From: Lewinella sp. LCG006 | GTDB taxonomy: Bacteria; Bacteroidota; Bacteroidia; Chitinophagales; Saprospiraceae | DNA: 64,000 nucleotides | Assembly: GCF_040784935.1 (NCBI RefSeq) | Contig: NZ_CP160680.1 | Location: forward strand, 5,871,802 to 5,935,801 | Reading direction: 5' to 3' | Shown here: in pieces, positions 911 to 63,123 of the stretch | How positions within the stretch are numbered: position 1 is the first letter of the stretch | Layout: every line of letters begins with the position of its first letter | The notes under the pieces: model-generated | Told to the model about the DNA's origin: nothing | The model's database searches: none | Seen by the model: only the letters and a program-made list of their open reading frames with translations | Made by a program: the position numbers and the translations under genes

Positions 911-1227
911 TTGTTAATAATTTCTTGATTCTTCAGAAGGCAACCTCAGAAGTATTTTAAGTGCACTAGGAGGATGCTTTTACATTGGTCCATACCAAAA
1001 TAGGCATAGATGCTCTCAAAAAATGATATTTCGAAAAAAAACTCCCTTCCGGTAACATTCCTTACTCACCCGGTATAAAAAATTGTTAACCATTAGATCC
1101 AGTTGACCCGTTTTCAACGTAAGTCATGGGAATAATTTGATGCAAGGTCATAGTAAAATCAACCTTTACACTTTTACACTTTTACACTTTTTTTATACGC
1201 ATACACTATAAAACAACCAAGCTTATC
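911..1227. other. Intergenic stretch without a recognisable gene
   Basis: These 317 bases separate the divergent genes at 910 (minus) and 1228 (plus). I see no credible coding frame. The only structured part is a short tandem repeat of TTTTACAC at 1165-1187, followed by a T-run. Confidence 0.5.
1165..1187 (+). repeat. Three tandem copies of TTTTACAC
   Basis: The first unit lacks one T; the next two are exact 8-bp copies, followed by seven Ts. The repeat lies about 40 bp upstream of the acyl-carrier-like gene, where a length change could alter promoter spacing. Confidence 0.7.
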
Positions 1228-8078: not shown

Positions 8079-8164
8079 AAACGAAACCACATCAATAAAG
8101 AAGCTTTGTACAGCATCTTGCGTGATAGCTAAACCAAAAAGTAGTCTCGTGTGTCTTTTAATTG

Positions 8165-8172
8165 TACTTTTG
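8165..8172 (+). promoter_or_regulatory. Candidate -7 promoter element TACTTTTG
   Basis: An exact match to the Bacteroidota -7 consensus TAnnTTTG, 31 bp upstream of the M16 protease ATG. No clear -33 TTG at the usual spacing. Confidence 0.45.
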
Positions 8173-8203
8173 GAAACAATTGTTTAACCAAGTTATATAC
8201 ACA

Positions 8204-10963
8204 ATGAATGTGATTTCCCGACTAGGGGCACTCCTATTAATTGCCCTGGTTTGTAACCTGTCCTCCTCTCTTTTTGCCCAGAATGGTGGAATGCCTGATG
8301 GTGTAACCAAATTAGCCTCTGTTGAAGGCATTACGGAATACAAAATAGAGGCCAACGGTTTACGAATTTTGCTCTTTCCTGACAACTCAAAACCGACGGT
8401 TACCGTGAATGTAACCTACCTGGTAGGTTCTCGCCACGAAGCTTACGGTGAAACCGGAATGGCTCACTTGCTTGAGCATTTGGTATTCAAAGGGACACCT
8501 AACCATGAGGATATCCCCAAGGAACTCAATGAGCGCGGTGCTCGATTTAACGGCACCACCTGGTACGATCGTACCAACTACTTTGAAACCGTCAGTGCCA
8601 ACGATGAAAACCTCCGTTGGGCACTAGAGATGGAATCTGATCGAATGGTCAACTCTTACATTTCTGGCGATGACCTCAAAAGTGAGATGACCGTTGTACG
8701 CAACGAATTCGAAATGGGCGAAAACAGCCCGACGGGCATCCTGATGGAGCGCGTATTGTCTACGGCCTACCTTTGGCACAATTACGGAAAATCAACCATC
8801 GGTGCTCGTGCCGATTTAGAGAATGTGCCGATTGAACGCTTGCAAGGCTTTTACCGCAAGTACTACCAGCCTGATAATGCTTACTTAATCATCGCTGGTA
8901 AATTTGACCCCGCAAAGACCATGACCATGATCATGGAAACTTTTGGAAAAATTCCTGCGCCAGATAGAGAGCTGATCCCCACCTACACCCGTGAGCCTAT
9001 TCAGGACGGTGAGCGTTATGCTGACCTCAAGCGGGTAGGGGACATTCAGGCGGTAAGTGCTGCCTATCACATTCCTCCTGGCAGCCACCAGGATTATCCA
9101 GCAGTAGATGTGTTGGTGGAACTTTTGACAAGTGAGCCCAGTGGTCGTCTGTACAAAGCATTGGTGGAAAGCGGAAAAGCTTCTTCCCAGTGGGGTTGGG
9201 CTGCAGAACTTGCCGAGCCTGGTTTCGCTTATTTCAATGCGGATGTATTGAAAGACAAAGACCTGGAAGCAGCGAAAATGGCCATGCTTACTACCCTTGA
9301 TGCGGTAAAAGACAACCCACCATCAGCGGAAGAAGTAGAGCGTGCCAAGAATAAATTGCTTAAAGACTTCAACCTGCGGATGCGTGAAAGTGCACGTGTT
9401 GGCACGCTCATCAGTGAGTACATCGCTCAGGGTGATTGGCGTCTTGGTTTCATTTACCGCGACCGTCTGGAGCAAGTATCAGCGGAGCAAGTAGCAGAGG
9501 TTTCGGCTAAGTACTTATTACCAAGCAACCGGACAGTAGGTCGATTTATTCCTACCGAAAAGCCTGAACGTGCCGAGATTCCTGATGTGCCCAATATCAG
9601 CGCAATGGTAGACGGCTACGAAGGCCGCGAAATGGCTTCTGAAGGAGAAGTTTTTGAAGCTACTTACGAAAATATTGACGCCAGAACCAAAACGGGTGAA
9701 TTCAAAAATTCTTTGGAATACGCCTTCTTGTCAAAAGAAACCCGCGCTGACGCAGTACAGGCACGTTTGTCTTTGCGTTACGGTTCTCCAGCCAGCCTTA
9801 AGAATAAGCGCATGGCTGCTACTTTTGCCGGCATGATGCTGAACAAAGGTACCAAGTCGATGACGCGCCAGGAGTTGGAAGATAAACTGGTAGAACTTAA
9901 AGCATCGGTACGAATTGGTGGTGGTGCCGAAGGTGCTTACGCCATCATCGAAACGGAGCGCGACCAATTGCCCGCAGTGATTGCACTGGTGAGCGAAATG
10001 ATGCAGGAGCCTAGCTTCCCTGCTGAAGAGTTTGAGACCCTCAAGCAAGAGGAGTTAGCTTCCCTGGAGCAAAATCGCTCGGAGCCACAGGCGATAGCGA
10101 TCACCGAGTTGAATCGGAGAATGTCTAATTACGATAAATCAGATCCTCGCTACACCATGACTTTTGACGAAGAAGTGGCTGCCATCAATGCCCTGACTTT
10201 AGACGAAGTGAAAGCTTTCTACAAAGAGTTCTACGGTGCTACTGACGCAACGATTGCTGTCGTGGGCGATTTTGAGGAAGAGGCCATCGCACAAGCCTTG
10301 GAAGAAAACTTCGCCAATTGGGAAAGCCCTGCTCGCTATGAGCGCTTGAAGGATGATTTCTTTCAGCCCGAAAAGCAGAATGTAGAGTTTGAGACCCCAG
10401 ACAAAGCGAATGCTTGGTTCCTGGCAGGACAAACCATGCCCATCAGCACTTCACACCCTGATTACCCTGCGGTACTGATGGGGAATTACATGCTGGGAGG
10501 TGGTGCTTTGAAATCACGCCTCGCCGATCGTATCCGTCAGCAAGATGGTCTTAGCTACGGGGTAGGATCTTTCTTCAACGCCGATGATCAGGACCAAACA
10601 GCTACCCTTGGTGGGTACGCTTTCTTCGCTCCTGAAAATGTAGCTGCGGTAGAGAAAGCCTTCTTCGAAGAAATCGAAAAAGTACTGGCCAGTGGCTACA
10701 CCGACGAAGAGTTGGTAGCTGCCAAGAGCGGCTGGATGCAAAAGCAGCAAGTAACCCGCGCTCAGGATGGTTCTTTAGCCGGTGCGCTGAATCAAAACCT
10801 CTTCCTTGACCGTACCATGGAATGGGACGCCGATTTGGAAGCAAAAGTGATGGCACTCAGCATTGAGGAAATCAACGCAGCCATGCAGAAATACCTTGAT
10901 CCCGAGAAAATGGTCGTGATCAAAGTAGGTGACTTCGCTAAATCAAGAGCGGTGAAGCCGTAA
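8204..10963 (+). CDS. M16-family zinc metalloprotease, two-lobed, exported
   Basis: From the Met at 8204 it is 919 residues, the size of full-length two-lobed M16 proteases (PqqL/pitrilysin type). A signal peptide ends at SLFAQ (about residue 26). The inverted zinc motif HLLEH spans 88-92, and a downstream VVRNEFE supplies the expected third ligand Glu. The C-terminal lobe (about 500-919) lacks HxxEH, as is normal for the partner domain. It should degrade peptides in the periplasm or at the outer membrane. An ATG at 8162 would add 14 residues before the signal peptide and was rejected. A TAnnTTTG element lies 31 bp upstream. Confidence 0.9.
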   Translation: MNVISRLGALLLIALVCNLSSSLFAQNGGMPDGVTKLASVEGITEYKIEANGLRILLFPDNSKPTVTVNVTYLVGSRHEAYGETGMAHLLEHLVFKGTPNHEDIPKELNERGARFNGTTWYDRTNYFETVSANDENLRWALEMESDRMVNSYISGDDLKSEMTVVRNEFEMGENSPTGILMERVLSTAYLWHNYGKSTIGARADLENVPIERLQGFYRKYYQPDNAYLIIAGKFDPAKTMTMIMETFGKIPAPDRELIPTYTREPIQDGERYADLKRVGDIQAVSAAYHIPPGSHQDYPAVDVLVELLTSEPSGRLYKALVESGKASSQWGWAAELAEPGFAYFNADVLKDKDLEAAKMAMLTTLDAVKDNPPSAEEVERAKNKLLKDFNLRMRESARVGTLISEYIAQGDWRLGFIYRDRLEQVSAEQVAEVSAKYLLPSNRTVGRFIPTEKPERAEIPDVPNISAMVDGYEGREMASEGEVFEATYENIDARTKTGEFKNSLEYAFLSKETRADAVQARLSLRYGSPASLKNKRMAATFAGMMLNKGTKSMTRQELEDKLVELKASVRIGGGAEGAYAIIETERDQLPAVIALVSEMMQEPSFPAEEFETLKQEELASLEQNRSEPQAIAITELNRRMSNYDKSDPRYTMTFDEEVAAINALTLDEVKAFYKEFYGATDATIAVVGDFEEEAIAQALEENFANWESPARYERLKDDFFQPEKQNVEFETPDKANAWFLAGQTMPISTSHPDYPAVLMGNYMLGGGALKSRLADRIRQQDGLSYGVGSFFNADDQDQTATLGGYAFFAPENVAAVEKAFFEEIEKVLASGYTDEELVAAKSGWMQKQQVTRAQDGSLAGALNQNLFLDRTMEWDADLEAKVMALSIEEINAAMQKYLDPEKMVVIKVGDFAKSRAVKP

Positions 10964-10965
10964 GA

Positions 10966-10987
10966 GAGTACGAGGTACTTGGTAGAG
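10966..10987 (+). repeat. Short heptad-word array after the M16 protease stop
   Basis: Three consecutive degenerate 7-bp words (GAGTACG, AGGTACT, then TGGTAGA) begin 3 bp after the stop codon. The words match those at 17576-17674, 20784-20820 and 22355-22388. A short inverse, ACCAAGT, lies at 11045-11051. Confidence 0.5.
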
Positions 10988-11158: not shown

Positions 11159-11248
11159 AGAGCGGCTCAATCCTTGTCTTTGGTTGAGATGTGTCTCACA
11201 ACGTAGGGTAGCTGGTGTTAAGAGGGAGCTCCTTTGAATCCATGTACC

Positions 11249-11300
11249 GTGAGGTTGGTGGAATAATCAGATAATACAGTAATTGCCTCCCCAACCTCAC
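11249..11300 (-). terminator. Hairpin after the WG-repeat gene
   Basis: GTGAGGTTGG at 11249-11258 is inverted at 11291-11300, immediately 3' of the minus-strand WG-repeat gene. There is no strong T-run, so it is a moderate terminator candidate. Confidence 0.45.
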
Positions 11301-11301
11301 C

Positions 11302-17575: not shown

Positions 17576-17674
17576 GGTACTTGGTATAGCATTCATTTTA
17601 GGACTTCAAAACTCCGAGGAGGAACGACGATCAGCGAAGCTAATCCCTATACCCTATACTAAGTACCTAGTACT
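17576..17674. repeat. Inverted pair of heptad-word arrays between miaB and the sigma-54 activator
   Basis: The left arm at 17576-17589 reads GGTACTT, GGTATAG. The right arm at 17643-17674, read on the minus strand, has the same words in a 7-bp period (AGTACTA, GGTACTT, AGTATAG, GGTATAG). The arms point at each other and could form a hairpin. The words match the arrays around IS copy 1 and after the M16 protease. Confidence 0.6.
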
Positions 17675-17729
17675 GTGAGATTTGCCTGACGACTTCTTGT
17701 TTTTAGGAACACAAAAAGGCAAATCTCAC
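17675..17729 (-). terminator. Hairpin after miaB
   Basis: GTGAGATTTGCCT at 17675-17687 is perfectly inverted at 17717-17729, 5 bp after the miaB stop codon. The loop is 29 nt and holds a short A/T run. It is likely an RNA hairpin ending or protecting the miaB message. Confidence 0.6.
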
Positions 17730-17734
17730 ATTAC

Positions 17735-20783: not shown

Positions 20784-20820
20784 GTTATAAAGTATAAGGT
20801 ATAAAGTACTTGGTAGGTGT
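20784..20820 (+). repeat. Heptad-word array, left arm at IS copy 1
   Basis: Degenerate 7-bp words (AGTATAA, GGTATAA, AGTACTT, GGTAGGT) run up to the IS end. The last three bases TGT are the target duplication. The opposite arm lies at 22355-22388 beyond the IS. Confidence 0.65.
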
Positions 20821-20864
20821 TGACCTTCCCTAAATAACGTTGACAGGTTTATCAATCATTCTAC

Positions 20865-21887
20865 TTAAAAGCTAAGTGCTAGTTGTCCATCTTCTTTTGG
20901 CAAACCAAGCTTAACAAATGCGGGCAGAATCTGACTTGTCCCATCAAAAGCTCCGCTACTGGGATAAGTCAGATTCTGAGCCGCCATTGGCTGGTATTCC
21001 AACTCTTTTGCTTCGCCGTCTCGTATCAACAACGATGGTGGTCTTTGCCCCTTACTCTCCTCAAGATAACATTCAAATCCCAAAGGTGCAATTCGCAGCG
21101 GTAACTGACTATGGTGACGCACTTTGTTGTAGTTCTCTACAGCCCTCTTCACGTACCTTCTCAGTGCTCTATAATCTCTGATTGGCCAGTGCTCAAGGTA
21201 TTCATTCTTGATCACATCATTGAGCTTCTCTGCGTACGCATTGTCCAATGCTGTAATGCACATGCTAGAACTGATTCCTCGTGACCTCAATACTTCTATA
21301 AAGTCATTGCTGCGATACTGGGAGCCCCCGTCACTGTGGAAGATCAGTTCACTCAAATCCATACCACGACGCAAACGAAAGGCCATTTTCAGAGCCTCTA
21401 TGTTTGCTCTAGCTCGGAGGTTATCACTTACGCTATAGCCCACTATAAGCCGGGAATACACATCTATGATAAACGTCAGATAGTAATACTTGTCCTCTAG
21501 GCGATAGTAAGTCGTATCCGATTGCCAAACTCGGTTTAAACCTATGATAGTAAGCAACTTAACTAAATTAGGATACCGTAAACCACCACTCTTCGTAGTT
21601 CTAACATAGCTCCTTTTTCGTTCCAGCGAATGACCCAATAGAGTCATCTCTCGAATAAATGCATCGCGACCTAGTCCTTCTGGCTGGATCATATAGTAGG
21701 CCTTTTCAAGACCCAAACCTCCGTGATCTGCACGGTGTGTCAACAGCATTGCTTCCGCTGAATACACCCCGTCCTGATAATCCGCTCGCCGACGTAAATA
21801 TTGCGACAGCGATTGACGCGAAGTACCTAGTGCAGCATATACTTGTTCATTACTTGGACTCTTCATTTCTGATCTGTATTTCGACAA
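20865..21887 (-). CDS. IS3-family transposase OrfB (DDE integrase domain), IS copy 1
   Basis: 340 residues with the retroviral-integrase core: first Asp in WQSDTTY, second in FHSDGGSQY, and Glu in DNAYAEKLNDVIKNEYL. An N-terminal HTH_21-like region precedes it. The apparent start is a TTG at 21887. In practice it is expected to be made as an OrfAB fusion by -1 frameshifting on nine A residues (T9 on the plus strand, 21916-21924). After the slip the frame reads through KKKWFYDSLVRLLSKYRSEM with no stop. It performs the cut and strand-transfer reactions at the IS ends. Confidence 0.9.
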   Translation of the reverse strand: MSKYRSEMKSPSNEQVYAALGTSRQSLSQYLRRRADYQDGVYSAEAMLLTHRADHGGLGLEKAYYMIQPEGLGRDAFIREMTLLGHSLERKRSYVRTTKSGGLRYPNLVKLLTIIGLNRVWQSDTTYYRLEDKYYYLTFIIDVYSRLIVGYSVSDNLRARANIEALKMAFRLRRGMDLSELIFHSDGGSQYRSNDFIEVLRSRGISSSMCITALDNAYAEKLNDVIKNEYLEHWPIRDYRALRRYVKRAVENYNKVRHHSQLPLRIAPLGFECYLEESKGQRPPSLLIRDGEAKELEYQPMAAQNLTYPSSGAFDGTSQILPAFVKLGLPKEDGQLALSF

Positions 21888-22270
21888 GAGCCGGACAAGG
21901 GAGTCGTAAAACCACTTTTTTTTTCAACATCTATTCCTGCTTCACGAAGCTCCTCTATAAAGCTCTCATAGTAGTCCAATTTAATTTGTTTTTGACCTAG
22001 AGAACGTTCTAGTTCAGCCACCCGCTTTTCCAGCAATTTAACCTTCTCCGTCTGGGAATTTGGTACTTCCACTATTATCGCTTTTTGTTGATCGTACGAG
22101 CTGTACTTACTTATCCAGCGGTACAGAATATTTACATGGATGCTGTATAAACGACCTATCTGGGCCACGCTAAAGGTACCTTCTTCATAGTCCTTAACTC
22201 GCGCTTTTTTAAAGGTTTCACTGTAATTACGACGCATTTTGGGCCGATTAACCTTATTCGTTGACTTCAT
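21863..22270 (-). CDS. IS3-family transposase OrfA (HTH and leucine zipper), IS copy 1
   Basis: 135 residues. The basic N-terminus (NRPKMRRNYSETFKKARVKDYEEG) leads into a helix-turn-helix with SVAQIGRLYSIHVNILYRWI. A coiled coil of leucines follows (KVKLLEKRVAELERSLGQKQ). It binds the terminal repeats and acts as the DNA-binding part of the OrfAB transposase, or alone as inhibitor. It begins 41 bp inside the right end. Its end overlaps OrfB by 25 bp, and the A9-G slippery run lies 29-37 bp before the TTG of OrfB. Confidence 0.88.
   Translation of the reverse strand: MKSTNKVNRPKMRRNYSETFKKARVKDYEEGTFSVAQIGRLYSIHVNILYRWISKYSSYDQQKAIIVEVPNSQTEKVKLLEKRVAELERSLGQKQIKLDYYESFIEELREAGIDVEKKSGFTTPLSGSCRNTDQK
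21916..21924 (-). promoter_or_regulatory. Programmed -1 frameshift site (A9-G), IS copy 1
   Basis: Nine A residues followed by G on the minus strand, at the end of the shared part of orfA and orfB. The OrfB frame is -1 relative to OrfA and is open directly after the run. This matches the A-rich slippery sites known for the IS3 family. Confidence 0.75.
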
Positions 22271-22354
22271 TTTTAACTAAATTTGTTGTCAACGTATTTC
22301 AGGGATAGTCATGTATCACCTAGTGGGTAGATCAGGCGCTGAGGACTGAAAGGG

Positions 22355-22388
22355 AGTCCTAGTACCTAGTACTCCGTACCTAATACCT
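22355..22388 (-). repeat. Heptad-word array, right arm, directly after alanine dehydrogenase
   Basis: On the minus strand the words AGGTATT, AGGTACG, GAGTACT and AGGTACT follow the ald stop codon without a gap. They are the inverse partner of the array at 20784-20820. Confidence 0.65.
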
Positions 22389-24669: not shown

Positions 24670-24677
24670 TATCTTTG
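24670..24677 (+). promoter_or_regulatory. Candidate -7 promoter element TATCTTTG for the VCBS protein gene
   Basis: An exact TAnnTTTG match 54 bp upstream of the chosen ATG at 24732. The heptad array at 24696-24731 would lie in the leader of this transcript. Confidence 0.5.
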
Positions 24678-24695
24678 AATATAGCGATGGCTAGA

Positions 24696-24731
24696 CCATC
24701 AACCATCAACAAACAACCATCAACCAACCCC
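24696..24731 (-). repeat. Heptad-word array of the GGTTGAT type in a 5' leader
   Basis: Read on the minus strand the words GGTTGAT, GGTTGTT, TGTTGAT and GGTTGAT repeat every 7 bp. The same word occurs around IS copy 2. Here it precedes a start codon rather than following a stop, and I see no inverse partner close by. Confidence 0.6.
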
Positions 24732-26999
24732 ATGACTACTCCCTTTCACTATCTTCTTTTCGTGTCTATCCTGTTGTTCTTATTGCCCAACATGGATGCC
24801 CAAAACATCAACTTTGAGCGTAGTTTTCCGACGGTAACCCAAAACGGAAATGCTTCGTCTCTGGGCTTTGTTGGAGGTTTGAATAGCCCGCAGTTTTCGA
24901 TGGTGGATTTCAATAATGACGGACAAAAGGACCTCTTCGTTTTTGATCGGGTAGGCAATGTAGCGATGGCCTTCGCCAAAGACGGCAACAACAAATGGCG
25001 CTTGCGCCCGGAATTCCTGGTTAATTTTCCCGATTTTGATTCTTGGGTTTTGCTACGAGATTACAACAATGATGGGATCGAAGATATCTTCACCTACAAC
25101 CGCAACATGGCCTCCGGAGTGAAAGTATTCACCGGCAGTTATTCACCGGAAGGCATCATTGATTTTGAGCGGTTTACGTTCCCTAATGCGCTGGACATCA
25201 TCTTTATACCCACCAGCGGTGGTGCGGAAACCCAATTGTATATTAGCAACATTGATTACCCGGATGTAGAAGATGTGGATTGTGATGGGGATCTGGACAT
25301 CTTGACCTTCAACATCAGTGGTGGTTTTCTGGAGCTTTATACCAACTTGTCGGTAGAGAACGGTTACGGAGCAGATAGTCTGATTTTTATTTTGGGAGAC
25401 AATTGTTACGGAGGAATTTACGAGAGCGGTCTTTCCCCCGAGCTTGATTTGGCGGCCAGCGCCAACGAATGTGCGAGCGGCATTAACACCGGAGAGGTAG
25501 AAAACCGCCATGTAGGTTCTACCGTCCTTACGCTTGATGAGGATGGGGACGGTGATAAGGACTTGATTTTGGGTGACCTCTCTTTCTCTTCCCTCACCAT
25601 GGCCACCAATGGCAATAATTGTGATGATGCCTGGATGACGGCACAGGATATCAACTTCCCCAGCTACGATGTATCGGCTTACCTGCCCCTGTTTCCTGCC
25701 GCTTTTTACCAGGATATAGATGGCGATAACAAACGAGATTTAGTAGTGGCGAGCAATGAAGACAATATAGGGATAGACCATAAGAACGTTTGGTACTACA
25801 AGAACATAGGAACGGATGATAACCCTAATTTTGACTTCCGCCAGGATGATTTGCTGGTGGGCGAAATGATTGACTTGGGTACCCGCTCTCACCCGGCATT
25901 AATTGATTACAATGCTGATGGTCTGCAAGATCTTGTCGTAGGAAACTTCTCTTTTTATGCCGAGTTGGGTTTTAAAAACAGCCGCCTTTACCTCTATGAA
26001 AACACAGGCACTGCCACCGCTCCGGCCTTCACGCTGGTGGATGATGATTACTTGGGAATGTTTCAGTACAATGGTACGGTTCCCGGTACGGGCACTTATT
26101 CTTTTTCTCCCACCTTCGGCGATCTGGATGGCGACGGTGATGCCGACGCCCTGGTTGGAGATATCGAGGGCAAGTTGTTTTATTTTGAAAATACCGCTGG
26201 CCCAGGCCAAGTGGCGACGTTTGGTCCTGCAACTTACGGGTACATGGGGATCGACATAGGACAAGCAGCAGTACCCCAAATTGTCGACCTGAATCGTGAT
26301 GGATTAAGCGATATTGTCATTGGTGAAAAAACGGGTAATCTCAATTATTTTCAGAATGTAGGAGCCATAGGATCACCCATGTTTGGCGATGATGAGGAAG
26401 TAGCGCCCAATGTCCGTCAATTAGGGCAAGTAGACACCCGAGTCATCGGCTCTTCCGTAGGATATGCTACTCCTTTTTTTGTAGACCTCAACGGTGAGTA
26501 CCACCTTTTGGTCGGTTCTCAATCCGGTGCTTTGGAGCATTATCGCGACATTGAAGGACATCTGGATGGCACTGCTTTCACGCAGGTGAGCGAAAACCTA
26601 CTCGACCGTAGTGAAGGCATCTATACCCACCCTGTTTTGTGGGACTGGAACGAAAATGACTTCTACGACCTGGTACTGGGCAACGAGCGCGGGGGCGTCA
26701 GCTTCTTCGCCACCAATCTTCTGCCGGATGGTACGGTAGACGCTGAAACAATTGCCGAGCGATCCATCCTCTGGGAAGTTTACCCCAATCCGGTAAAAGA
26801 CCAGTTGTTTCTGAATACTCAAGGCATTGGAGAAGGCACCCTGCAGCTGTTCGATCAGCAGGGGCGCGTATTGTGGGAGGCCGCATCTTCTGCTCCCTTA
26901 CCTACTCAGTTGGACTTGAGCAGGTACCCTTCAGGCTTGTATTTCTTGAAGTTACGTACGGCTGCGGGGAGTTCTGTAAAGAAAATAGTAGTGGAGTAA
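24732..26999 (+). CDS. Secreted VCBS/FG-GAP repeat protein with type A T9SS sorting domain
   Basis: 755 residues from the Met at 24732. The signal peptide ends near NMDAQ. About nine calcium-binding-like repeats of the D-x-[DN]-x-D-G-x-x-D-[LI] type follow, including FNNDGQKDL, DCDGDLDI, DEDGDGDKDL, DGDGDADAL and NRDGLSDI. They probably fold as a seven-bladed propeller or two. The last 80 residues are a type A T9SS sorting domain (VYPNPVKDQLFL, GRVLWE, LDLSRYPSGLYFLKL, KKIVVE). It is expected to be exported by the type IX system and either anchored or released at the surface. The earlier in-frame ATG at 24675 would place array-coded residues before the signal peptide and was rejected. Confidence 0.9.
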   Translation: MTTPFHYLLFVSILLFLLPNMDAQNINFERSFPTVTQNGNASSLGFVGGLNSPQFSMVDFNNDGQKDLFVFDRVGNVAMAFAKDGNNKWRLRPEFLVNFPDFDSWVLLRDYNNDGIEDIFTYNRNMASGVKVFTGSYSPEGIIDFERFTFPNALDIIFIPTSGGAETQLYISNIDYPDVEDVDCDGDLDILTFNISGGFLELYTNLSVENGYGADSLIFILGDNCYGGIYESGLSPELDLAASANECASGINTGEVENRHVGSTVLTLDEDGDGDKDLILGDLSFSSLTMATNGNNCDDAWMTAQDINFPSYDVSAYLPLFPAAFYQDIDGDNKRDLVVASNEDNIGIDHKNVWYYKNIGTDDNPNFDFRQDDLLVGEMIDLGTRSHPALIDYNADGLQDLVVGNFSFYAELGFKNSRLYLYENTGTATAPAFTLVDDDYLGMFQYNGTVPGTGTYSFSPTFGDLDGDGDADALVGDIEGKLFYFENTAGPGQVATFGPATYGYMGIDIGQAAVPQIVDLNRDGLSDIVIGEKTGNLNYFQNVGAIGSPMFGDDEEVAPNVRQLGQVDTRVIGSSVGYATPFFVDLNGEYHLLVGSQSGALEHYRDIEGHLDGTAFTQVSENLLDRSEGIYTHPVLWDWNENDFYDLVLGNERGGVSFFATNLLPDGTVDAETIAERSILWEVYPNPVKDQLFLNTQGIGEGTLQLFDQQGRVLWEAASSAPLPTQLDLSRYPSGLYFLKLRTAAGSSVKKIVVE

Positions 27000-27884: not shown

Positions 27885-27939
27885 AGGAAGGTGTAAGGGT
27901 TTTTTAGGTGGAAGTGGGAAAAAAGCTTACACATTTTAA

Positions 27940-28095
27940 AAGTCGGAAGTGGGAAATCGGAAGTCGGAAGTATTTTGCCTTAGTAGCTGTCATTCCTACA
28001 ACTAAGAGCTTGTTAGGAGATAACGTTTAAAACCCACCTTGAAAGGCCTACGCGTATCACGTTAATTCCGACTTCCCACTTCCGATTTCCGACTT
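27940..28095. repeat. Inverted pair of heptad-word arrays (GTCGGAA type)
   Basis: The left arm at 27940-27970 repeats words of the form RTSGGAA four times with a strict 7-bp period. The right arm at 28066-28095 carries the same words on the minus strand but in a permuted order. The right arm begins 4 bp after the prolyl oligopeptidase stop. Between them are 95 bases without a gene. Confidence 0.75.
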
Positions 28096-28099
28096 AACC

Positions 28100-30253
<2,154 letters not shown>

Positions 30254-45711: not shown

Positions 45712-46163
45712 TCTCGCTCAATAACAAATATTTCTTAACACTACAGCGGACAATCACTGTAAAAACAAACACATTGCATACGCAAAGCGACGCGATGTAG
45801 CGGCTTATACCCGTTACTAAGTGGTCTGGGACATTCTCACTTGTCCTTTTTTGCTCTGACTGCGTTAAAAAGCCTCGCCGAAGTTTAGGCTTCGCCTACG
45901 TTTTTCGCCTTGGCAGAGCAAAAAATGACGTTGCGATAATATTCCCAAACCACTTAGTGCCGGGTATAGCTAAATCAATTATTATTTTCGTGCTGTTTCA
46001 TAGGAATGAATGGGGAATGGGCGTTGATGCACAGCAGACAAACTGCCTTTTTTGAATAGAAACATCAAAAAAGACACGTGTAGATTATTATAGTATGATG
46101 GCACAATACAAAAGTAGCCCTTTACTATGGAAAAGATAGGTGAATTTTTCTTATTTATCTCTA
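45712..46163. other. Intergenic region holding palindromic element B
   Basis: 452 bases with no credible gene. A palindromic repeat occupies 45804-45970. The rest (45971-46163) is A/T-rich and I see nothing specific in it. Confidence 0.4.
45804..45970. repeat. Palindromic dispersed element, copy B
   Basis: The ends GGCTTATACCCG and CGGGTATAGC are inverted, continuing into CTAAGTGGTCTGGGA and its inverse with three mismatches. The core at 45862-45910 starts GCGTTAAAAAGCCTCG and ends TCGCCTACGTTTTTCGCCT. This is the same core as the minus strand of 7971-8020, while the outer arms differ. It is non-coding. Confidence 0.75.
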
Positions 46164-58489: not shown

Positions 58490-59344
58490 ATGTTCATGTT
58501 TCGAGGAACCCTCTTACACGAACTGCTCCATTTGCCAAACTACTGGAAGGTCGTAAGGGCTTCTCCTGATCTACCTTACCCTGTACAAAAAATAGCTTTT
58601 GGTGATCACTATCGTCAATATTTCCTGATCGTTGAACCCGCTGAGCCTCCGTTGGGATGGATCATATACTGGCACGGCGGCGGTTGGCAGTTTGGTAGCC
58701 CGGAACAGTTTCAAAAAACGGCTCACCCCTTTCTGGATGCGGGATACGGCGTTATCATTCCCAGTTACCGCCGGTTGCCCTGGAACGATTTTCGAACGAT
58801 TCGCCAGGATACGATAATGGCCTTGGCTGCTTGCCGCAATTTCTGGCAAAGCAAGGGTAATCCTCACCCGCACGTTGTACTTTTAGGAATGTCGGCTGGT
58901 GGGCACCTGGCTTCCATTGCCGGTTTAGATAAAAGCATCCTTCAAGAAGCAGGTTGGGACCTTGCCCAAATCAAAGGAGTCGTTGCCTGCGGAGGAGTAC
59001 TTGATTTTTCTTTGATGAAAAACAATCCTATCATTCGCCTTCTGGCAGGTCACCCCGAAAGAGCTACTTATAGCTTAGCGAATCCGGTCGCGCAAATAGC
59101 TAAACAAACCGCTAAGCTTCCCCCTTTTTTACTCATTCACGGTACTAAAGACGGCATGGTACCTTACGAGGCCGTGGTGAGTTTCCAAAAATGCTACCGC
59201 GAGCATTCTTCTGCCTCTACTTGCGACTTAATAACCATGCAGCGAGGCACTCACCTCGATGCCGCCCGCTGGATGTTTAAGGATACGCTATTGCGTCAAA
59301 ACATCATGGCAAAAGTAGGAAGATGGTTGATGGTTGATCGTTGA
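58490..59344 (+). CDS. Alpha/beta-hydrolase (esterase/lipase-like)
   Basis: 284 residues. The oxyanion motif HGGGW is at 62-66, nucleophile Ser135 in GMSAGG, Asp221 in HGTKDGMVP and His255 in RGTHLDAAR. This is the HSL/BD-FAE-type esterase pattern. It probably cleaves a carboxylester in the cytoplasm. It starts 2 bp after the pseudouridine synthase stop, so it belongs to the ribF operon. The last residues (RWLMVDR, stop) are encoded by the first words of a GGTTGAT heptad array, so the gene end seems to have been taken from the repeat. Confidence 0.85.
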   Translation: MFMFRGTLLHELLHLPNYWKVVRASPDLPYPVQKIAFGDHYRQYFLIVEPAEPPLGWIIYWHGGGWQFGSPEQFQKTAHPFLDAGYGVIIPSYRRLPWNDFRTIRQDTIMALAACRNFWQSKGNPHPHVVLLGMSAGGHLASIAGLDKSILQEAGWDLAQIKGVVACGGVLDFSLMKNNPIIRLLAGHPERATYSLANPVAQIAKQTAKLPPFLLIHGTKDGMVPYEAVVSFQKCYREHSSASTCDLITMQRGTHLDAARWMFKDTLLRQNIMAKVGRWLMVDR

Positions 59345-59362
59345 TAGTTGTAGGTTGACCAT
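59322..59362 (+). repeat. Heptad-word array (GGTTGAT type), left arm at IS copy 2
   Basis: Words GGTTGAT, GGTTGAT, CGTTGAT, AGTTGTA and GGTTGAC follow a strict 7-bp period and run up to the IS. They overlap the stop codon of the hydrolase gene. The last three bases CAT are the target duplication. The opposite arm is at 60854-60900. Confidence 0.75.
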
Positions 59363-59406
59363 TGACCTTCCCTAAATAACGTTGACAGGTTTATCAATCA
59401 TTCTAC

Positions 59407-60429
59407 TTAAAAGCTGAGTGCTAGTTGTCCATCTTCTTTTGGCAAACCAAGCTTAACAAATGCGGGCAGAATCTGACTTGTCCCATCAAAAGCTCCGCTA
59501 CTGGGATAAGTCAGATTCTGAGCCGCCATTGGCTGGTATTCCAACTCTTTTGCTTCGCCGTCTCGTATCAACAACGATGGTGGTCTTTGCCCCTTACTCT
59601 CCTCAAGATAACATTCAAATCCCAAAGGTGCAATTCGCAGCGGTAACTGACTATGGTGACGCACTTTGTTGTAGTTCTCTACAGCCCTCTTCACGTACCT
59701 TCTCAGTGCTCTATAATCTCTGATTGGCCAGTGCTCAAGGTATTCATTCTTGATCACATCATTGAGCTTCTCTGCGTACGCATTGTCCAATGCTGTAATG
59801 CACATGCTAGAGCTGATTCCTCGTGACCTCAATACTTCTATAAAGTCATTGCTGCGATACTGGGAGCCCCCGTCACTGTGGAAGATCAGTTCACTCAAAT
59901 CCATACCACGACGCAACCGCAAGGCCATTTTCAGTGCCTCTATGTTTGCTCTAGCTCGGAGGTTATCACTTACGCTATAGCCCACTATAAGCCGGGAATA
60001 CACATCTATGATAAACGTCAGATAGTAATACTTGTCCTCTAGGCGATAGTAAGTCGTATCCGATTGCCAAACTCGGTTTAAACCTATGATAGTAAGCAAC
60101 TTAACTAAATTAGGATACCGTAAACCACCACTCTTCGTAGTTCTAACATAGCTCCTTTTTCGTTCCAGCGAATGACCCAATAGAGTCATCTCTCGAATAA
60201 ATGCATCGCGACCTAGTCCTTCTGGCTGGATCATATAGTAGGCCTTTTCAAGACCCAAACCTCCGTGATCTGCACGGTGTGTCAACAGCATTGCTTCCGC
60301 TGAATACACCCCGTCCTGATAATCCGCTCGCCGACGTAAATATTGCGACAGCGATTGACGCGAAGTACCTAGTGCAGCATATACTTGTTCATTACTTGGA
60401 CTCTTCATTTCTGATCTGTATTTCGACAA
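59407..60429 (-). CDS. IS3-family transposase OrfB, IS copy 2
   Basis: 340 residues, differing from the copy 1 OrfB by one visible amino acid (Leu for Phe in KMALRLRRG). The DDE residues (QSDTTY, HSDGGSQY, NAYAEKLNDV) are all present. The TTG start and the -1 relation to OrfA are the same. Confidence 0.9.
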   Translation of the reverse strand: MSKYRSEMKSPSNEQVYAALGTSRQSLSQYLRRRADYQDGVYSAEAMLLTHRADHGGLGLEKAYYMIQPEGLGRDAFIREMTLLGHSLERKRSYVRTTKSGGLRYPNLVKLLTIIGLNRVWQSDTTYYRLEDKYYYLTFIIDVYSRLIVGYSVSDNLRARANIEALKMALRLRRGMDLSELIFHSDGGSQYRSNDFIEVLRSRGISSSMCITALDNAYAEKLNDVIKNEYLEHWPIRDYRALRRYVKRAVENYNKVRHHSQLPLRIAPLGFECYLEESKGQRPPSLLIRDGEAKELEYQPMAAQNLTYPSSGAFDGTSQILPAFVKLGLPKEDGQLALSF

Positions 60430-60812
60430 GAGCCGGACAAGGGAGTCGTAAAACCACTTTTTTTTTCAACATCTATTCCTGCTTCACGAAGCTCCTCTAT
60501 AAAGCTCTCATAGTAGTCCAATTTAATTTGTTTTTGACCTAGAGAACGTTCTAGTTCAGCCACCCGCTTTTCCAGCAATTTAACCTTCTCCGTCTGGGAA
60601 TTTGGTACTTCCACTATTATCGCTTTTTGTTGATCGTACGCGCTGTACTTACTTATCCAGCGGTACAGAATATTTACATGGATACTGTATAAACGACCCA
60701 TCTGGGCCACGCTAAAGGTACCTTCTTCGTAGTCCTTAACTCGCGCTTTTTTAAAGGTTTCACTGTAATTACGACGCCTTTTGGGCCGATTAACCTTATT
60801 CGTTGACTTCAT
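60405..60812 (-). CDS. IS3-family transposase OrfA, IS copy 2
   Basis: 135 residues. It differs from copy 1 at three positions: Arg for Met near 12, Met for Ile in VAQMGRL, and Ala for Ser in KYSAYD. The HTH and leucine zipper are intact. Confidence 0.88.
   Translation of the reverse strand: MKSTNKVNRPKRRRNYSETFKKARVKDYEEGTFSVAQMGRLYSIHVNILYRWISKYSAYDQQKAIIVEVPNSQTEKVKLLEKRVAELERSLGQKQIKLDYYESFIEELREAGIDVEKKSGFTTPLSGSCRNTDQK
60458..60466 (-). promoter_or_regulatory. Programmed -1 frameshift site (A9-G), IS copy 2
   Basis: Nine A residues followed by G on the minus strand, the same length as in copy 1. Conservation of the run in both copies fits a functional slip site. Confidence 0.75.
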
Positions 60813-60853
60813 TTTTAACTAAATTTGTTGTCAACGTATTTCAGGGATAGTCA

Positions 60854-60900
60854 CATCAACCATCAACCTACAACCTACAACCTCACCGCCTCAACCTCAG
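60854..60900 (-). repeat. Heptad-word array (GGTTGAT type), right arm
   Basis: On the minus strand the words GGTTGAG, GCGGTGA, GGTTGTA (twice) and GGTTGAT (twice) repeat every 7 bp. The array begins inside the last codons of the aminopeptidase gene and supplies its stop codon (ttg tag). It pairs with 59322-59362 across the IS. Confidence 0.75.
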
Positions 60901-62849: not shown

Positions 62850-62951
62850 AAATAACTGATTCCATTTTTGATTCGCTAAAATTTTCTAAGCAAGCAACTA
62901 AAAGGCGCTTGCGTGAAAATATTCGCGAATCAAAAATGGAATCAGTTATTT
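62850..62951. repeat. 102-bp element with perfect 27-bp inverted repeats
   Basis: The left arm 62850-62876 (starts AAATAACTGATTCC, ends TTGATTCGC) and the right arm 62925-62951 are exact inverses. A small inner stem (AGCAAGC / GCTTGCG) lies in the 48-nt loop. GACGG further extends the pairing after a 5-nt slip. It lies between divergent genes and could be a MITE-like element or an extruding operator. Confidence 0.75.
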
Positions 62952-63123
62952 CCGTCGAATTACTTATGGTCTAATAACGCACCAAAGCCACAAAAGTAAC
63001 TGCTACGTCAAGATTCTCCACTTTTAAGGCCTATTTTTTCATAAATGCCAACCAAGTGGGTACTGTGTATGTTTTGGATTTGTATCTTTACTTTGGAATT
63101 CATCTAAATAAGACATCATCAGT

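Follow-up and report, generated by a model that had tools for sequence, protein, structure and literature searches.

What is an inverted pair of heptamer arrays at the end of a gene, and what in it is kept? The question is raised by positions 27940-28095 of the stretch of DNA analysed here (64,000 nucleotides, hereafter the window), which corresponds to 5,871,802-5,935,801 of the 7.5-Mb single-contig genome G000. An initial annotation, made from the sequence alone, described four RTSGGAA words in each arm, a period of exactly 7 in both arms, a permuted and inverted word order in the right arm, and a distance of 4 bp between that arm and a stop codon. The sequence bears out each of these points, and the stop codon (28100-28102, minus strand) belongs to a prolyl oligopeptidase gene (ORF 28100-30253). 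Below we follow this pair into the rest of the genome and into related genomes, above all G002, a congeneric species with 85% mean protein identity to G000 over 204 reciprocal best hits.

Arrays in the window

The arrays of the window belong to four word families (F1 to F4), and two of the array sites are divided by an IS element. By position, the features are as follows.

1165-1191, minus strand: F4 (GTGTAARR, period 8) array.
10966-10987, plus strand: F3 (GTAYNNR) arm of three words, directly after the stop of ORF 8162-10963.
17576-17589, plus strand: F3 G-rich arm of two words.
17645-17674, minus strand: F3 inverted arm of four words.
20784-20818, plus strand: F3 G-rich arm left of the IS; G002 has the same array without the IS.
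20821-22311, minus strand: IS3-family copy 1 (orfA 21863-22270, orfB 20865-21887), with a TGT duplication.
22355-22388, minus strand: F3 inverted arm right of the IS.
24695-24726, minus strand: F2 (GTTGNWD) inverted arm, just ahead of the likely start codon at 24732.
27887-27937, plus strand: outside the F1 arms, octamer-family remnants (GGTGTAAGGG, TTACAC); the orthologous spacer of G002 is full of octamer arms.
27940-27971, plus strand: F1 (RTSGGAA) G-rich arm of four words, GTCGGAA-GTGGGAA-ATCGGAA-GTCGGAA.
27972-28065, plus strand: F1 loop with two inner motifs, TTAGTAGC near the left arm and TACGCGTATCACGTTA adjoining the right arm.
28066-28095, minus strand: F1 inverted arm, whose four words are permuted and run GTCGGAA-ATCGGAA-GTGGGAA-GTCGGAA on the minus strand.
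59322-59359, plus strand: F2 G-rich arm left of the IS, overlapping the last codons of ORF 58490-59344.
59363-60853, minus strand: IS3-family copy 2 (orfA 60405-60812, orfB 59407-60429), with a CAT duplication.
60854-60895, minus strand: F2 inverted arm right of the IS.

Tandem Repeats Finder recovers every place listed in the initial annotation except 10966-10987, with only a two-copy core at 17576-17674. No partner arm for the F3 array at 10966-10987 was seen by eye. With an alternative TTG start at 24675, the F2 arm at 24695-24726 would fall inside the ORF. Searches of the window gave no Rfam match at the gathering threshold and no tRNA or tmRNA. A Por secretion sorting domain (PF18962) is consistent with Bacteroidota.

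Several other repeats were observed alongside the arrays. A second hairpin, GTGAGRTTTGCC...GGCAAATCTCAC with variants, recurs near F3 arms in both G000 and G002 (window 17676-17731 and about 11246-11301; L103 4020-4080; G002 spacers). A longer inverted repeat, AAATAACTGATTCCATTTTTGATTCGC with its inverse, occurs with different middles at about 62850-62960 of the window and at L073 13160-13551; it resembles another dispersed element and is absent from the orthologous G002 spacer. A stretch that is not of the heptamer kind, AAAAAGCCTCGCC...CTACGTTTTT...GCCTTG, lies at 45713-45999 of the window, and G002 holds a similar one in the spacer orthologous to G000 87909-88081 (joined-region coordinates).

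Abundance, period and placement

Self-matches at a fixed lag were surveyed in 40 evenly spaced 20-kb stretches of G000, a total of 800 kb that divides into 140 kb of intergenic and 660 kb of coding sequence. At lag 7, 29 intergenic segments and a single coding segment score 14 or more, which agrees with the excess that the initial annotation had predicted. At lag 8 the counts are 11 intergenic and 1 coding, and no other lag between 3 and 13 yields more than one intergenic segment. Lags 14 and 21 give 12 and 7 intergenic segments, with 0 and 2 in coding sequence respectively. Shuffled controls, made for 10 of the 40 stretches, contain no such segment at lag 7, 8, 14 or 21. Additionally, runs of three consecutive RTSGGAA words occur 108 times in the G000 genome, compared with 0 for the reversed control. 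The period was said to be shared across loci; period 7 does dominate, but it is not universal, and period 8 (GTGTAARR) is also common.

Placement was scored in a wider set of 1.304 Mb, made up of 38 of the 40 stretches and 544 kb around or near the window (two longer regions, of which one contains the window). This set holds 93 arrays and 602 spacers of 40-3000 bp, as delimited by our own simple ORF and codon score rather than by a published gene caller. Within 25 bp of a stop codon lie 31 of the 93 arrays, against a mean of 16.6 when arrays are placed at random in the same spacers, and none of 2000 trials was as high. The corresponding count for start codons is 7 of 93, with 9.7 expected. Arrays are found in 65 of the 602 spacers (about 11%): by gene orientation, in 19 of the 104 convergent spacers, 39 of the 362 tandem ones and 7 of the 136 divergent ones. 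These counts confirm that lag-7 arrays between genes, with a bias to stops, are real and exceed chance. For the places first listed, the description as mostly stop-adjacent agrees with the general bias but not in every case: the array given as 24696-24731 precedes the likely start at 24732, and the one at 59322 overlaps an ORF end.

A dispersed element with two inverted arms

The RTSGGAA case of the window is one copy of a dispersed element. In aligned copies the unit measures about 110-200 bp and consists of two inverted arms with sharp outer ends, AAGTCGG...CCGACTT. The alignment holds 23 copies, chosen because their arms pair within 260 bp; it omits 9 of 30 paired elements, mostly with other or nested loops, and includes 2 further copies. 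On the left side, an arm of four words beginning AAGTCGGA is followed by GTATTT and, some 10 nt further, by approximately CTAGTRGC. On the right side, a variable middle leads to a motif near TACGTGTATCNCGTTA and then to the inverted arm that ends in CCGACTT. Outside these ends the 23 copies have no consensus.

Four-word arms are the rule, on the left in 25 and on the right in 24 of 30 elements. The outer word starts with GTC in 19 of 25 left and 21 of 24 right arms, and the inner word likewise, while the middle two words vary by copy among GTG, ATC, GTC and AGC. Because the middle words vary between copies, the permuted order in the window is one combination among many. The initial annotation had read this order as a sign that the arms arose independently of each other here, a conclusion that is not supported, as the case is one of many dispersed copies.

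A sequence model of the F1 right end has at least 151 matches in G000 (among 150 candidates scored) and 59 in G002 among 150 candidates scored, and a model of the left end has at least 155 in G000. Among the right-end matches listed, those of G002 are often full length, and those of G003, G004 and G023 cover mainly the arm. A loop with one F1 arm is also seen in tandem, with units of about 104 bp and about 200 bp, at G000 5216108-5216572 and 7144850-7145700 (L013-L015, L090).

Polarity and stacking of word families

The arms have a consistent direction. Taken from the nearer edge of the spacer, the G-rich strand points inward in 73 of 92 arrays (p 1e-8), and this applies to F1 (24/33), F2 (16/17), F3 (8/10), F4 (14/17) and other words (11/14). 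The outward readers include 9 of the 33 F1 arrays and the only array of a fifth word, CGCACCC (0/1 inward). Inward polarity is found in 45 of 58 arrays at stops and in 28 of 34 at starts; it is alike at both, and therefore transcription does not set it.

Arms of different families are stacked within one spacer; L083, for example, has F4G-F2C-F4C, and the window site has F4G-F1G-F1C (G, G-rich arm; C, inverted arm). Neighboring arms follow one another as G-C in 28 cases, C-G in 3, G-G in 15 and C-C in 16, and for neighbors of different families the counts are 13, 3, 6 and 9; some of these arms are false, given that the F1-F4 arm expressions match 179 times in 1,094 kb of coding sequence and 171 times in 183 kb of spacer. 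Palindromes lying side by side would yield many C-G neighbors, and the small number of them therefore points to insertion of the elements inside one another.

An IS3-family element in array sites

The initial annotation listed 20784 with 22355 and 59322 with 60854 as two pairs of arrays. The arrays are present, but each pair is a single site, of F3 and F2 respectively, into which an IS3-family element has been inserted. G002 has neither the IS nor an array at the ortholog of 59322/60854. G000 carries 8 full-length, 1,491-bp copies of the element (L031-L038), each with a 3-bp duplication. We assign it to the IS3 family because its two ORFs overlap and carry HTH and rve parts and because it makes a 3-bp duplication. 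In comparisons with NF033516, orfB reaches 147.5 bits and orfA 31.8, both under the 160-bit whole-protein cut-off, and IS66-accessory models score orfA about equally to NF033516. A scan of the named genomes found no relatives of the transposase.

The landing sites of this element are not a random sample of spacer positions. An array lies within 60 bp of 7 of the 8 insertion sites, as compared with 179 of 3000 random intergenic points (6%; binomial P 2e-8), and the eighth copy (L033) has only weak F3-like words nearby. The element, the period-8 family, the inward G-rich polarity, the stacking of families and the word turnover described below had all been missed in the initial annotation.

Array sites in related genomes

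Orthologous spacers of G000 and G002 allowed us to ask how array sites persist between close species. Of 189 such spacers, 162 were scored, after exclusion of 25 pairs in which both members fell under 30 bp and of 2 pairs whose G000 spacer exceeded 2,500 bp and held extra genes. Arrays are found in both species in 14 spacers, in G000 only in 11, in G002 only in 8 and in neither in 129 (odds ratio 20.5, p 1e-8), at a score threshold of 9 that lets in low-complexity chance segments (shared sites 7 and 20 look so). The association persists at thresholds of 10, 11 and 12 (p 9e-8, 3e-7 and 4e-6) and in the 104 spacer pairs of at least 100 bp in both species (11, 7, 6 and 80 in the same order; odds ratio 21, p 1e-6). 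Array sites are thus shared far beyond chance, and they are also gained and lost between these two species.

Sharing of a site does not imply sharing of the word. Judged by reading, two of the 14 shared sites look like chance, two overlap in part, seven have the same or close arrays and three have a different dominant family. For G000 and G002 respectively, these three changes are RTSGGAA versus GTGTAARR at the window site, the octamer versus F2, and RTSGGAA versus F2. At each differing site the spacer of one species retains a fragment of the family that dominates in the other: octamer pieces beside the RTSGGAA element of G000 in the first, octamer pieces in G002 in the second and an RTSGGAA piece in G002 in the third. 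The retained fragments therefore favor layers that come and go over replacement of one word by another.

Beyond this pair the presence of the words is patchy. No array was seen by eye at the end of the orthologous oligopeptidase gene in G001 or G003. Among 60 genomes, with G000 counted, RTSGGAA is present in 7 and GTGTAARR in 4; GTTGNWD is present in 23, where the reversed control is uninformative because the reversed pattern is nearly identical, and GTAYNNR in 19, with counts outside the genus uncertain and a reversed control that is also frequent in distant genomes (85 and 129 in G047; 16 and 71 in G015). Genomes of other genera hold these or similar heptamers as long near-perfect runs, unlike the four-word arms of G000; examples are G004 L150-L152 (up to 18 words), G053 (GTATAGA) and G026.

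Comparison with known repeats

The closest published case is that of the four-unit GGGAATC heptamers of Xanthomonas; this comparison and those that follow draw on parts of each source. According to Rehm et al. (2015, PMC4692102), the Xanthomonas GGGAATC and Nostoc GGGGA(C/T)T heptamers have a period of 7, a preference for four units and a mostly intergenic location. In Xcc, 70 convergent inverted pairs are counted among 186 heptamer repeats, which are rare between divergent genes, and the GGGAATC repeats have their G-rich side on the coding strand when they follow a stop and on the non-coding strand when they precede a start; the authors left their function open. The G000 arrays resemble them in period, in the preference for about four units, in convergent pairs, in polarity and in an intergenic location with a stop bias, with the exception that one G000 family has period 8. 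They differ in the words, since the repeats of Rehm et al. have one word per genome with tracts of 3-4 G, whereas G000 has several words with at best two G. Inner motifs, nesting and IS targeting are features of G000 that are not described in the portions of PMC4692102 compared.

A second heptamer, TAACTGA, forms intergenic direct repeats that also occur in five Bacteroidetes, some with other heptamers nearby, and Flexibacter litoralis has a set of seven just past a stop codon (MacGregor 2015, PMC4679880). In the parts of that account used here, TAACTGA forms single direct repeats, mostly just before starts and with one inverted case in the genome studied, whereas the arrays of G000 form inverted pairs.

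Among mobile repeats, REPINs or REP doublets (Bertels and Rainey 2011, PMC3116915) likewise consist of two inverted units and a spacer, and are dispersed, extragenic and non-autonomous with a predicted hairpin; F1 is an inverted doublet of this dispersed and extragenic type. REP units, as presented in sections of that paper, are palindromes near RAYT genes, whereas the G000 arms are, by inspection, direct arrays of words like GTCGGAA with no RAYT-like gene close. G000 has 4 Y1_Tnp genes, and no segment scoring at least 11 at lag 7, 8, 14 or 16 lies within about 1.5 kb of them. We rejected a RAYT/REP system on this ground, as Y1 genes exist without arrays nearby. F1 also has the terminal inverted repeats with sharp outer ends that mark MITEs of DDE transposons. 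BrickBuilt of Porphyromonas gingivalis (PMC4596501) is, like the G000 arrays, an intergenic element of Bacteroidota that combines inverted ends and a tandem repeat; from the parts of its description compared, it carries a 23-bp tandem unit within small inverted ends, whereas in G000 the tandem words are the arms. Finally, REP-targeting IS elements (Tobes and Pareja 2006, PMC1525189) likewise insert preferentially into intergenic palindromic repeats, and the G000 case differs from those portions of that work in its heptamer and octamer array targets, IS3 family and 3-bp duplications. Searches of the open-licence PMC literature returned neither an account of these words nor one of inverted heptamer pairs nested inside each other in this group.

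Possible sources of the arrays

There are several possible explanations for these arrays. The one we favor, at roughly even confidence, is that they are nested foldback repeats of a REPIN- or MITE-like kind, non-autonomous and accumulating at tolerant gene ends, whose arms are arrays of recognized words. New copies would insert at the loop or centre of palindromes already in place, as does the IS, and such insertion would produce the nesting, the uniform polarity and the sites that two species share under different dominant words. Copies would persist, neutrally, where they are least harmful, namely after stop codons. The arms may be arrays of sites recognized by a putative protein at intervals of 7 (or 8) bp; the retention of the word, of the number of words and of the period, without that of a matched stem, would then be explained. 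A benefit to the host at mRNA 3′ ends, if any, would be secondary. There is tension with this proposal, as unrelated word families share one design that single transposon families alone would not explain. In addition, direct repeats of 2-8 bp at the edges of the 30 F1 elements are no more frequent than in mismatched pairs, although target duplications could have decayed in old copies; the outward-reading arrays, CGCACCC and 9 of the 33 F1 arrays, go against the common polarity; arrays are present in only about 11% of spacers; and the runs of up to 18 copies in G004 look more like slippage. No autonomous partner with F1 ends was noticed in the G000 stretches examined.

A fairly unlikely explanation is that selection acts on RNA hairpins at 3′ ends, where the stem of the transcript would end or protect mRNAs and the hairpin would be kept whatever the word. 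The stop bias is consistent with it, as are the order of convergent over tandem over divergent spacers, the sharing of sites between G000 and G002 and the strong fold at the window site, where 166 nt of the minus strand give -62.5 kcal/mol against -38.75 (sd 3.65) in 200 shuffles. The two arms of one F1 element are not specially matched to each other, however: in 30 pairs, pairing within elements is no better than pairing across elements (mean -36.7 versus -37.8; percentile 0.43; permutation p 0.93), which agrees with the earlier suggestion that the word is kept rather than a particular stem. No arm co-evolution, the mark expected of a selected RNA stem, was thus found. Intrinsic terminators are rejected as well, since 0 of 60 arm ends have a T-tract (at least 6 T in 8 nt) after the stem; a terminator pattern scan, which allows loops of 3-8 only, is blind to arrays with such long loops. 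The equal polarity beside starts, the roughly nine in ten spacers without arrays and the absence of any array visible by eye at the orthologous gene of G001 and G003 also argue against 3′-end hairpins. With neither a matched stem nor a T-tract nor a target duplication, a selected stem, an intrinsic terminator and a duplication-making transposon are therefore unsupported for these repeats.

We consider it improbable that the arrays are simple heptanucleotide slippage repeats, with inverted pairs that arose by chance or local inversion. An excess of heptamers in many prokaryotes, without an accepted cause, is told of in parts of PMC4679880 and PMC4692102 and would suit slippage, as would the long runs of G004 and, for GTATAGA, of G053; those of up to 18 words in G004 fit what is expected of a slippage microsatellite, namely a broad spread of unit numbers and no fixed inner sequence. 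The arrays of G000 and G002 do not, given their inner motifs and a sharp four-word peak: 32 of 47 runs of at least three words are four long in the 1.304 Mb of G000, and 10 of 13 in 508 kb of G002. The consistent polarity and nesting across families also speak against slippage.

Slightly more doubtful still is the idea that a host DNA-binding protein, with a role in the nucleoid, in partition or in Chi-like end protection, uses the arrays as its sites and binds the words in register at 7-bp steps. Ribbon-helix-helix proteins such as omega, which bind heptad arrays, offer a precedent. A host protein would suit the fixed word number and period and the retention of the word but not the stem, and the polarity would face a break in the loop; at least four unrelated words in one genome and their patchy presence in relatives count against it. 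G-quadruplexes, with four words giving four G-tracts on the inward-reading strand, are very improbable: G stands at position 4 of RTSGGAA in 223 of 239 words and at position 5 in 235, arms have four words and a quadruplex was proposed for GGGAATC in Xanthomonas (in portions of PMC4692102), but G-tracts of at least 3 are lacking, as F1 has mostly GG, F4 alternates GG with AA (GTGTAAAA/GTGTAAGG) and many F2 and F3 words have no GG.

Implications

The nested foldback repeats that we favor would account for the arrays of G000 and its close relative. A broader and improbable proposal, made less likely by the fragments retained at the three sites of differing word, is that a boundary-directed process writes interchangeable heptad arrays into spacers with the G-rich strand inward, and that the heptamer excess of Xanthomonas, Nostoc and Beggiatoaceae could be a product of this process and not of slippage. 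Such a process could be palindrome-targeted insertion or templated 3′-end extension at breaks. One genome shows the unit of four words, its polarity, stacking and turnover, and the landing of an IS, and mobility, slippage and host function can thereby be tested separately. If the reading is true, these arrays would be a class of small mobile DNA that has so far been scored as simple repeats.
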